Below are positions 44,398 through 49,485 of a stretch of 50,532 nt of DNA, piece by piece (position 1 is the stretch's first letter; every line of letters begins with the position of its first letter). Position numbers and translations under genes: made by a program. Source of the stretch: an uncultured Microcaldota archaeon (GTDB lineage: Archaea; Micrarchaeota; Micrarchaeia; Burarchaeales; Fermentimicrarchaeaceae); contig CAIXRF010000107.1 in NCBI GenBank assembly GCA_903921825.1, positions 1-50,532 of the forward strand, read 5' to 3'. Under the pieces are notes generated by a model. It did not search any database. It had not been told where the DNA came from and saw nothing but the letters and a program-made list of their open reading frames with translations.

Positions 44398-47040
44398 GTG
44401 GGGAGAAAGCAAGCTCTAGTAGTGAGACTTGTGGGCGGCACCCGTGCGCAATCCGCGATGCAAGTTGCCTGCGGGCAACAGCCTCGCGCCTGCCGTGGGC
44501 AGAGCGCGATGGAATTCCTCATGACCTACGGCTGGGCGCTTCTCGTCCTCCTAGTCGTGGTGGCAGTCCTATTCTATATTGGTGTCATAAACCCAAAGAA
44601 CGCACAGACTAACACCCTTTTCTTCACCCCTGGCTTCAGCGCCTACTCCTTCAGGGTAGGCAATGGCACCGGCTCCCTGGAGCTTGACTTCGGCCAGGCA
44701 ATAGGCCAGTCAGTCATTGTGACTGCAATCTCATGCTCACAGAATTCAACTGTGGTGATGGACGACCTGAGCAGCCAGCCCCTGAGCAGCCAGATTACCA
44801 TCCCCTCCGGTGAGCACAGATGGGTTACAGGCGGCAACTCCAACAACGGCGCCTTCTGCACAGGGGAGGACGGCGGGCAGCTCTCCTTAGAGAGTGCACA
44901 GTTGGGTGAAAGATACAAGGGAGTGGTGTGCGTCAGGTATATTGAGGCGGACACCTACGTTAACAGGACCGTGTGCGGGGATATTAACGCACAGTTCGAG
45001 TTTGCGTCTGTGCCAAGGCCCACTGCGACCCCTGGAGGGAGCCTGACTCCGACGCCTACCCCTACTCCGACGCCAGAGGCAAGTCCGACGCCTACGCCCA
45101 CTCCAGGCTGCTCCGGCAGTTGCCAGGACGGAGTGTGCAACGGCTGCAATGTGTATCTCTCCAGCGGGAGCTGGGTGCTCGAAGGCGACATAATATGCGA
45201 AAGCTGGTGCAATGGCATAACAATACAGGGAAGCGGTGCAACCATTGACTGCCAGGACCACTCGGTAACCGGCGCAGGCCCGGGCAGCAGCGTCGGCATC
45301 CATGTGGATGGCGCAGATGGAGCTACGGTGAAAAACTGCGTGGTGAGCAATTTCAACCAGGGCATTTACGTCTACGACTCCAACAACTGCCAGCTTTTGG
45401 ACAACACTGCAAATTTGAACGGCTTCACTGGAATTAACATGTATTCTTCCAGCAACAACAATCTCACAGGCAACACCGCGGATTCGAACAGCGAGGGCAT
45501 TTACCTGCAGTCAAACGGCATCATTGGCTCGAGCAACAACAGGCTCACGGAAAACACCGCCACCAATAACAGCGAGACGGGCATCTATGCTGACTTTCTC
45601 TGCACCGACAATGTTTTCTCCAGCAACACCGCCTGCTCGAACACGAACGACGACATCGCCTGCGGAGTAGCCCAGATTGACGGCAGCGGCAACAAGTGCG
45701 TGCCACTCGGGCCAGACACCTCATGCTACAGCAGTATCTCCTGCAACTCTGGTTGCCCCACAGGCCCGCCTGCCTGCGCCCCCGGCTGGGTGGTAGGCTC
45801 CTGCCCGTGCGCACTCATCACGCCCGGTGATTACAGGCTTGAAAGCAACCTCAGCACAAATGGCGCACCAGAGACGTGCATAACCATCCCGATGAAAGGC
45901 AGCGGCGCCACGCTCGACTGCCAGGGGCATAGCATCGTCGGAGGAGGAAATGCGGACGGCATATATTTGTACGAAGCCAGTGGGGTAACTGTGAGGAATT
46001 GCGATGTGACCGACTTCGGAGACGGCATACGCCTGGAATATGCAAGCAACAGCAGCATAACTGGCAATACTGTGGATTCAAACGATGACACGGGTATCAG
46101 CTTGAGCAGCGCAGCGAACAACAGCGTAACTAACAACAACGCCGCCTTAAATCGCGACTACGGCATCCATATTGATGGTGATGGCAACAACCTCACGGAC
46201 AACAACGCCAGCCTGAACGGCCAGGGCATCTTAGTGTACGGCAGCAACAACCGCCTCACCGACAACACCATCTGCTCGAACACAAACAATGACCTTTACT
46301 GCGGCGCGCACCAGGTCGATGGCGACGGCAACGAATGCACTCCACTTGGAACAAACGCCGGGTGCAACATCGCCTGCAATGCGGGCTGCCCGCCCCCGGA
46401 GCCTCCGGCGTGCGCTGAGGGCTGGGTGGTGAGCGAATGCCCGTGCACGCTCAACGCGCCAGGCGATTACAGGCTCGAAAGCGACATCAATGCCACGGGC
46501 TATGCGGACTGCATCAAAATCCCGGCAAAAGGCAGCGGCTCCACACTTGACTGCAACGGTCATAACGTTTCAACTAACAGCCCTGGGGGCGGCACGGGCA
46601 TCACCTTAGATCGCGTGAGCGGGGTGCGTGTGGAGAACTGCAATGTGAGCAACTTCTGGGCTGGCATATACCTGAACGGCGCTACCGGTAGCGCAGTCAT
46701 AAATAGCAACTTAACTTCGAACTCCCTCGGCGTCTATGTGTCGGACTCAAACGGCAACAACATCACGGGCAACTACGCAAGCCTGAGCGGCCAGCGCGGC
46801 CTGTTCCTAGGTTCATCCAGCAACAACAATATCACAGGCAACGTCCTCATCTCAAACAGTGACGGCGTTGGCCTCTCCAGCGCGAGCGACAACAACTTCA
46901 CCACGAACGTGGCAACGGGCAATACAAATGACTTCCGCTGCTTCAGCGGAGACTGGAACTACGACGGAGGCAACACCTGCGGCACTAACTCAGGCTGTGG
47001 TGGTTGGCTCGCCTGCCTCACGCCGACACCAGCACCCTAG
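44398..47040 (+). CDS. Pilin-like (class III signal peptide) surface protein with Thr-Pro linker and NosD-like right-handed beta-helix repeats
   Basis: GQSAMEFLMTYGWALLVLLVVVAVLFYIG; GSGATIDCQDHSVTGAG, NNNLTGNTADSNSEGIYL repeats; N-terminal about 190 aa paralogous to 4378 gene. Exact start uncertain (44398 or 44422). Confidence 0.8.
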   Translation: MGRKQALVVRLVGGTRAQSAMQVACGQQPRACRGQSAMEFLMTYGWALLVLLVVVAVLFYIGVINPKNAQTNTLFFTPGFSAYSFRVGNGTGSLELDFGQAIGQSVIVTAISCSQNSTVVMDDLSSQPLSSQITIPSGEHRWVTGGNSNNGAFCTGEDGGQLSLESAQLGERYKGVVCVRYIEADTYVNRTVCGDINAQFEFASVPRPTATPGGSLTPTPTPTPTPEASPTPTPTPGCSGSCQDGVCNGCNVYLSSGSWVLEGDIICESWCNGITIQGSGATIDCQDHSVTGAGPGSSVGIHVDGADGATVKNCVVSNFNQGIYVYDSNNCQLLDNTANLNGFTGINMYSSSNNNLTGNTADSNSEGIYLQSNGIIGSSNNRLTENTATNNSETGIYADFLCTDNVFSSNTACSNTNDDIACGVAQIDGSGNKCVPLGPDTSCYSSISCNSGCPTGPPACAPGWVVGSCPCALITPGDYRLESNLSTNGAPETCITIPMKGSGATLDCQGHSIVGGGNADGIYLYEASGVTVRNCDVTDFGDGIRLEYASNSSITGNTVDSNDDTGISLSSAANNSVTNNNAALNRDYGIHIDGDGNNLTDNNASLNGQGILVYGSNNRLTDNTICSNTNNDLYCGAHQVDGDGNECTPLGTNAGCNIACNAGCPPPEPPACAEGWVVSECPCTLNAPGDYRLESDINATGYADCIKIPAKGSGSTLDCNGHNVSTNSPGGGTGITLDRVSGVRVENCNVSNFWAGIYLNGATGSAVINSNLTSNSLGVYVSDSNGNNITGNYASLSGQRGLFLGSSSNNNITGNVLISNSDGVGLSSASDNNFTTNVATGNTNDFRCFSGDWNYDGGNTCGTNSGCGGWLACLTPTPAP
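44464..44509 (+). repeat. Two hairpins in the leader-coding region of the 44398 gene, homologous to those at 4486-4550
   Basis: gttgcc/ggcaac (44464-44479) and tcgcgc-ctgcc/ggcag-a-gcgcga (44484-44509). Confidence 0.8.
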
Positions 47041-47062: not shown

Positions 47063-47228
47063 CGGGCCCGAGGGGAAATTCGGCAAGCCGAATGCGCTGT
47101 TCGCGCAAGCGAACTTGCGTTCGGACCCCTGACATACTGGTTTCTTCACCCTTCTTTTCCGTTAACGCTTTTCTTCGGGAAGAAAAGGGTTAAGAGCCAG
47201 TCGCTCTACCAAGCTGAGCTACGGGCCC
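47063..47228 (-). tRNA. tRNA-Lys(CTT), interrupted by two putative introns (anticodon loop 47142-47190; T-loop 47077-47119)
   Basis: Acceptor GGGCCCG/CGGGCCC, D arm GCTCAGCTTGGTAGAGC, anticodon arm ACTGG-CTCTTA|A-CCAGT, variable ATGTC, T stem AGGGG/CCCCT with 50-nt loop; discriminator G; T-run downstream. Confidence 0.85.
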
Positions 47229-47289: not shown

Positions 47290-47850
47290 ATGGCGAACGT
47301 CGTTGTACTGAGATTGGGGCACCGGAAGACCAGGGACAAGAGGGTGAGCACGCACGTTTTCCTCGCGGCGAGGGCGCTAGGCGCAAACGGCGGGGTGCTG
47401 TGCGGCGAGGAGGACGAAACCATCCTGGGAAGCGTCCGGAAGGTTTCCGAGAAGTGGGGAGGAAAATTCCCCATCTCGTTTGCACGGAATTGGAAGAAGG
47501 AGCTCCTCAGGAAGCGGCGGCAGGGCTTCACCGTCGTTCATCTCACAATGTATGGCGAGAAGCTGATGGACAGGATAGGCGCCATCAGGCGGAAGAAAAG
47601 GTTGTTGGTGGTCGTCGGCGCGCAGAAGGTCCCCCCTGAAGCTTACTCGCTTGCTGACTACAACATTTCGGTGACAGGGCAGCCGCACAGCGAGGTTGCC
47701 GCGCTTGCCGTATTTTTGCATGAGCTTTCCAACGGGAAGGAGCTGGACGCGCGCTTCCCGGGTGCTAGGATACGGATAGCGCCTTCGGCAAGGGGAAAGC
47801 GGGTTATGAAGGGCGCGAAGCGGGCATACAAAACACATTTATATAAGTGA
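47290..47850 (+). CDS. trm56: tRNA (cytidine(56)-2'-O)-methyltransferase (aTrm56)
   Basis: VVVLRLGHRKTRDKRVSTHVFLAARALGA; VVHLTMYG; LLVVVGAQKVPPEAYSLADYNISVTGQPHSEVAALAVFL. Confidence 0.9.
   Translation: MANVVVLRLGHRKTRDKRVSTHVFLAARALGANGGVLCGEEDETILGSVRKVSEKWGGKFPISFARNWKKELLRKRRQGFTVVHLTMYGEKLMDRIGAIRRKKRLLVVVGAQKVPPEAYSLADYNISVTGQPHSEVAALAVFLHELSNGKELDARFPGARIRIAPSARGKRVMKGAKRAYKTHLYK
47838..47847 (+). promoter_or_regulatory. TATA box for TFE gene
   Basis: tttatataag about 25 nt upstream of ATG 47867. Confidence 0.6.
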
Positions 47851-49410: not shown

Positions 49411-49485
49411 AGCGGGGTAGGGTAGCTTGGAGTGCCCGCTGGGCTCATAACCCAGAGATCCGTGGTTCAAATCCACGCCCCGCTA
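49411..49485 (+). tRNA. Initiator tRNA-Met(CAT)
   Basis: AGCGGGG/CCCCGCT acceptor with A1-U72; CTGGG-CTCATAA-CCCAG with three G:C pairs; T arm CGTGG-TTCAAAT-CCACG; upstream ttatata box. Confidence 0.95.

Follow-up and report, generated by a model that had tools for sequence, protein, structure and literature searches.

Sugahara in 2008 and Fujishima in 2010 reportedly described non-canonical BHB introns in the tRNAs of Thermoproteales, and Fujishima in 2011 and Hirata in 2012 are said to have described the tRNA introns of ARMAN-1 and ARMAN-2 together with their epsilon2 endonuclease. Published accounts ascribe multiple and non-canonical tRNA introns, as well as intron transposition, to Thermoproteales, T-arm intron sites to archaea in general and tRNAs with several introns to ARMAN (PMC4033280, PMC4090602, PMC8450103, PMC12397907). 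The epsilon2 enzyme reportedly has a broad specificity and accepts a relaxed BHB (PMC12397907, PMC6379350). Relaxed BHB introns, 59/60 junctions and intron transposition are already known from Thermoproteales and ARMAN. A literature search of partial coverage returned no account of T-loop (59/60) introns across Micrarchaeota, an absence that is not proof.

Here we analysed a tRNA-Lys(CTT) gene in a 50,532-nt stretch of DNA from an uncultured archaeon, hereafter the window, which is contig 107 of a 1.25-Mb assembly (G000; 138 contigs, 88.75% complete). The original observation, that this gene has two introns with the second in the T-loop, was confirmed. Compared with the introns of Thermoproteales, which it resembles in kind, the case differs in its DPANN lineage, its epsilon2 enzyme and its recurrent use of 59/60. 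ARMAN-1 and ARMAN-2 (Micrarchaeum) have the same enzyme type, and for ARMAN published accounts report tRNAs with several introns and the cutting of non-canonical ones (PMC4033280, PMC6379350, PMC12397907); this likeness concerns the enzyme and the multiple introns. The 59/60 junction is shared with the permuted tRNAs of Thermofilum and Cyanidioschyzon, in which the gene halves are swapped, whereas here the normal order is kept and a short intron is present (PMC3218864). As in the intron-gain model for the Caldiarchaeum tRNA-Thr, a recent gain is visible as differing copies in close relatives; an integrating element was proposed there, whereas here a Y1 transposase was not associated with the repeat described below as Family B (PMC3293823). 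Less expected were the class-wide scale of the T-loop introns and the finding that a structured repeat in the 37/38 intron also occurs in 23S rRNA and intergenic DNA. The tRNA-Lys(CTT) case is of interest for this scale and for a traceable recent intron copy.

The gene has the acceptor stem GGGCCCG/CGGGCCC and the anticodon stem ACTGG/CCAGT (Table 1). Its anticodon loop is interrupted after A37 by 49 nt and its T-loop after A59 by 43 nt, and 50 nt separate the arms of the T-stem. Cuts at AA^C and TT^T excise 47119..47077 and leave the 7-nt T-loop TCCGAAT. The insertion lies at 59/60, reading TCCGAA^...^T here against an uninterrupted TTCGAAT in the ortholog of the related genome G003. The predicted mature tRNA is 74 nt long without CCA. 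Both ARAGORN and Rfam at its cut-off missed the gene, and the window yielded only a tRNA-Met at 49411. When the 43 nt were excised, the cloverleaf was restored and ARAGORN reported a tRNA-Lys(CTT) with a 49-nt anticodon intron. The first-pass annotation had placed two introns in this gene, with a 59/60 site, these cut positions and a C at position 55 of the predicted mature T-loop; re-reading of the sequence bore out each of these and the intron coordinates, and ARAGORN after removal of the 43 nt agreed on the two introns. Rfam gave no match to group I or group II intron families up to E = 10 across the gene, and a group I identity was rejected on this ground.

Table 1. Features of the tRNA-Lys(CTT) locus in the window.
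Feature	Coordinates	Strand	Evidence
tRNA-Lys(CTT) gene, two introns, 166 nt unspliced	47063..47228	-	Sequence reading; ARAGORN after excision; syntenic orthologs beside Trm56 in G003, C41 and G015
37/38 intron (canonical position), 49 nt, with Family B element	47142..47190	-	Sequence; ARAGORN; R2 match 47155-47192, E 3.5e-9
T-loop intron at 59/60, non-canonical, 43 nt, Family A	47077..47119	-	Sequence; identical copy in tRNA-Arg(TCG) of G000 (C20); R1 match 47063-47130
TCCG, positions 54-57, 5' strand of BHB central helix	47122..47125	-	Sequence; covariation in relatives
CGAA, 3' strand of central helix, within intron	47079..47082	-	Sequence; pairing analysis
T-stem 5' strand, AGGGG	47126..47130	-	Sequence
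T-stem 3' strand, CCCCT	47071..47075	-	Sequence
Anticodon CTT (CUU)	47192..47194	-	Sequence; ARAGORN
aTrm56, tRNA C56 ribose 2'-O-methyltransferase gene, divergent neighbour	47290..47850	+	Pfam PF01994, 152.5 bits; orthologs in G003, C41 and G015

The splice junctions of the T-loop intron can be drawn as AAC / TCCG:CGAA / TTT, with a single interior C55.A mismatch. The two 3-nt bulges and the 4-bp helix at the exon-intron border of an archaeal BHB are present in relaxed form, and the T-loop intron of the window is a relaxed BHB. The minimum-energy fold of the T-arm contains the T-stem, a 7x7 loop and the inner helix and leaves the 4-bp central helix open, because of the C55.A mismatch. The structure had been called a near-perfect BHB; the pairing is possible, but the term is generous for a helix that stays out of the minimum-energy fold. 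A sister T-loop intron in the tRNA-Gly of the related genome G002 has a textbook 3-4-3 BHB as its minimum-energy fold. The complete 166-nt transcript of tRNA-Lys(CTT) folded at z = -4.95 and the T-arm alone at z = -3.09. To these scores covariation at related loci can be added. Central helices of the types TTCG/CGAA, TTCA/TGAA, TCCG/CGGA and TCCA/TGGA occur among the related T-loop introns. T54 and C56 were prescribed in our search pattern together with their partners; position 55 (Y) with its partner (R) and position 57 (R) with its partner (Y) could vary. In 34 parsed introns, a set limited to rows with at least three of the four pairs, position 57 and the intron Y formed A-U 21 times, G-C nine times and A-C four times (Fisher p = 1.4e-5). 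Position 55 and the intron R formed U-A 30 times, C-G twice, U-G once and C-A once, the last being the window (Fisher p = 0.016). Since the sequences are related, both p-values serve as a guide only. When at least three pairs were no longer required, just two tRNAs below that limit came in (Cys). The splice-helix structure paired in 98.6% of cells, compared with at most 64.5% when the partner was slid by 1-3 columns; T-stem pairing was a precondition of the parse. Unspliced, the candidates were not called by ARAGORN, except for tRNA-Leu(CAA); spliced in silico, nearly all of them were called, some with a misread anticodon where further introns remain. Together, the folding scores and the covariation show that the T-loop intron is more than a chance structure.

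Orthologous loci were then compared. The tRNA-Lys(CTT) gene is divergent from the Trm56 gene in the window, in G003, on contig C41 (L165) of the same assembly and in G015. An 880-aa protein with NosD / beta-helix repeats, likely a surface protein, is encoded at 44398-47040 (+), and its gene stops just past the 3' end of the tRNA gene on the opposite strand. Genomes with an uninterrupted T-loop in tRNA-Lys(CTT) are G003 (TTCGAAT), G001, G004, G007 and G011; an interruption is present in the window, C41, G002, G009, G012, G013, G014 and G015 (G002 and G013 by eye). Exons of the window and G003 are identical at 73 of 74 positions, the exception being position 55 (C here, U in G003), compared with ~72% identity in the aligned part of the flanking DNA. 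The first-pass annotation had asked whether an intact second tRNA-Lys(CTT) exists; the sole other one found in the assembly, on C41, also has both introns. Contig C41 is 2.2 kb long, bears a second LysRS gene and a second Trm56 gene, and has 85-90% DNA identity to G003. Because these genes are duplicated and C41 is nearer to G003 than to the window, it most likely holds, judging from its sequence, the same locus from a co-binned relative, and a second in-genome copy is unlikely. The C41 gene shares C55 with the window, and its own, different intron pairs with it perfectly (TCCG/CGGA). In tRNA-Lys(CTT), C55 would abolish the pseudouridine-55 site. A tRNA-Leu(TAA) of G000 (L018:1501-1585, contig 93) also has C55 (TCCGAAC) and carries no T-loop intron; C55 is therefore independent of the intron.

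The host genome encodes a matching enzyme. The endonuclease gene L092 is a 420-codon open frame whose product matches ARMAN-2 4fz2 over its whole length (458 bits). The catalytic residues Y236, H251 and K282 and the substrate-loop lysine K161, as named in PMC6379350, all align to identical residues. A three-unit protein with the catalytic Tyr/His/Lys and the substrate-loop Lys is what defines the epsilon2 type. On account of the full-length match, the conserved triad and the loop lysine, L092 is by alignment an epsilon2-type splicing endonuclease, as the first-pass annotation had guessed. The reading of two introns, including this enzyme, is supported.

We consider it very probable that the insertion is a BHB-type 59/60 intron in the working tRNA-Lys(CTT) of this genome, cut by the epsilon2-type endonuclease. 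In the precursor, exon positions 54-57 (TCCG) would pair with CGAA near the 3' end of the intron, between the T-stem and the intron-internal helix. After endonuclease cuts at AA^C and TT^T, 59 would be ligated to 60, and the T-loop would be the 7-nt UCCGAAU. Excision of the 37/38 intron would proceed in like manner. The single mismatch in the C55-bearing Lys precursor is expected to be tolerable to an enzyme of broad specificity. We infer this cleavage and ligation in the cell from the directly observed anatomy, covariation, empty and differently filled sites and enzyme gene. Counting against it are the central helix left open by the C55.A mismatch, the loss of a pseudouridine-55 site and a fragmented assembly with at least one contig (C41) that looks co-binned. 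It is very unlikely that the gene is a decayed pseudogene or that an assembly artefact put the insert into the T-loop. Standard finders miss the gene, the assembly is fragmented, and C55 and the helix mismatch could be read as damage. However, the exons equal those of G003 except at C55, and C55 recurs in the C41 ortholog with a perfectly pairing intron. Synteny is retained, T-loop introns recur in hundreds of genomes, and the assembly's one other detected Lys(CTT) is built in the same way. It is more improbable still that the mature tRNA keeps the insert in an enlarged T-loop. A stable hairpin on the T-stem is possible, but the covariation is located at the exon-intron splice helix, intron length in relatives ranges from 14 to ~96 nt, the same gene in G003 has a normal T-loop, and a broad-specificity endonuclease is encoded.

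To trace the origin of the 43-nt intron, which is a member of a dispersed family (Family A), we compared it with other introns. The same 43 nt, with 100% identity, are present in a tRNA-Arg(TCG) of G000 (C20:11830-11946), whose exon reads TTCG and whose helix, TTCG/CGAA, is perfect. The nearest relative after this copy was the tRNA-Arg(TCG) intron of G003 (81%), followed by tRNA-Gly introns, and relatedness to the introns of the Lys(CTT) orthologs was undetectable (z <= 2.2). A near-identical intron in a non-orthologous tRNA, with an unrelated intron or none in the orthologs, is the pattern of a transposed intron of the Fujishima type. Because the helix is perfect in Arg and mismatched in Lys, the intron is probably older in Arg, and the Lys intron would be a recent copy from the tRNA-Arg(TCG) of the same genome. 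We infer this direction, and any mechanism of copying, from the sequence identity, which was observed directly. One other origin, compatible with splicing, is that gene conversion from tRNA-Arg(TCG) replaced the 3' half of the Lys gene and the intron was not moved as an intron. This is possible, if somewhat doubtful: the T-stem-3'/acceptor sequence TCCCCTCGGGCCCG is common to both genes and could serve as homology, but position 55 and the 5' T-stem are unconverted and the identity ends at the tRNA 3' end. Moreover, the G003 Lys gene has an identical 3' exon and no intron, so that having this exon in common does not point to conversion; nor can conversion between tRNA genes account for related introns at other positions and in rRNA. 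RNA-mediated reverse splicing and gene conversion may both be routes of copying.

At least nine tRNA genes of G000 have T-arm introns, namely Gly(GCC), Gly(TCC), Leu(CAA), Lys(CTT), Arg(TCG), Arg(TCT), Glu(TTC), Ser(GCT) and Cys(GCA), those of Arg(TCT), Glu and Ser being identified by eye. In the tRNA-Cys(GCA) of G000 and G002 (L051, L127), the 3' end of the T-arm insertion repeats CCC, and the junction is ambiguous, maybe 60-64. A class-wide pattern search was too loose, with ordinary tRNA T-arms fitting its 5' half; an order-level pattern and the covariance model R1 were used instead. At E <= 0.01, R1 matched 234 of the 296 genomes in the class, representing 105 of 127 genera; this genome count was hand-checked in part. 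It matched none of eight bacterial control genomes, no genome among five from a single genus of the family to which the window belongs, and both of two further archaeal genomes, which were chosen for carrying this intron family. Thirty loci were parsed (L169-L198), 23 of which lie outside the seed set or repeat it, and nearly all were tRNAs with 14- to 61-nt T-loop introns. Several tRNAs in the class (at L048, L131, L122, L126, L270 and L236) seemingly have two to three introns, including D-arm and anticodon-stem positions. On these matches, 59/60 T-loop introns are widespread in this Micrarchaeota-type archaeal class. This suggests that T-loop intron invasion is a widespread trait of a DPANN class rather than a speciality of hyperthermophilic Thermoproteales. 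It may explain seemingly incomplete tRNA sets, as ARAGORN and Rfam at its cut-off overlook many such genes. The endonuclease type of the class is structurally known, which makes enzyme and substrates testable together, and close loci with no, an unrelated or a freshly copied T-loop intron make intron gain directly studyable.

The 37/38 intron of the window contains a second element, Family B, with the core NNRC-CC-hairpin-GC-GYNN-R-CGGAAAA. Its outer helix, P1, shows strong covariation, and a third position, a purine, covaries with it (A,U,A 12; G,C,G 12; other 3). In the window, two mutually exclusive inverted repeats of this intron share one arm. P1 was rejected as a general exon-pairing guide, since it is entirely intronic in several copies. 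Rfam holds no family matching the core. The model R2 found it in 42 of 296 genomes, with up to 21 copies each, at tRNA positions 37/38, the D-arm and 59/60, in the 23S rRNA of G009 and G068 (L242, L253) and in intergenic DNA. One copy in G000 (L024:645-714, contig 5) starts precisely where an intact tRNA-Pro(CGG) ends on its 3' side, and no 3' exon follows. In G088, four tandem cores with 50-bp spacing lie outside RNA genes (contig 123, 18644-18835; L294 / L266), flanked by two protein-coding frames. A Y1/RAYT (IS200/IS605) transposase was rejected as the mover: PF01797 was absent from G000, G003, G002, G014 and G015, and its presence in ~10 of the 42 Family B genomes, compared with 111 of 296 overall, gave no association. 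We suggest only tentatively, and think it rather unlikely, that Family B is an undescribed structured RNA/DNA repeat that moved, throughout a DPANN class, among tRNA sites, intergenic DNA and 23S rRNA. If true, it would be a small mobile element surviving within RNA genes via BHB-intron splicing. A further copy in G088 (L291, contig 110) lies in an rRNA spacer, between the apparent 3' end of the 16S rRNA and a tRNA-Ala.
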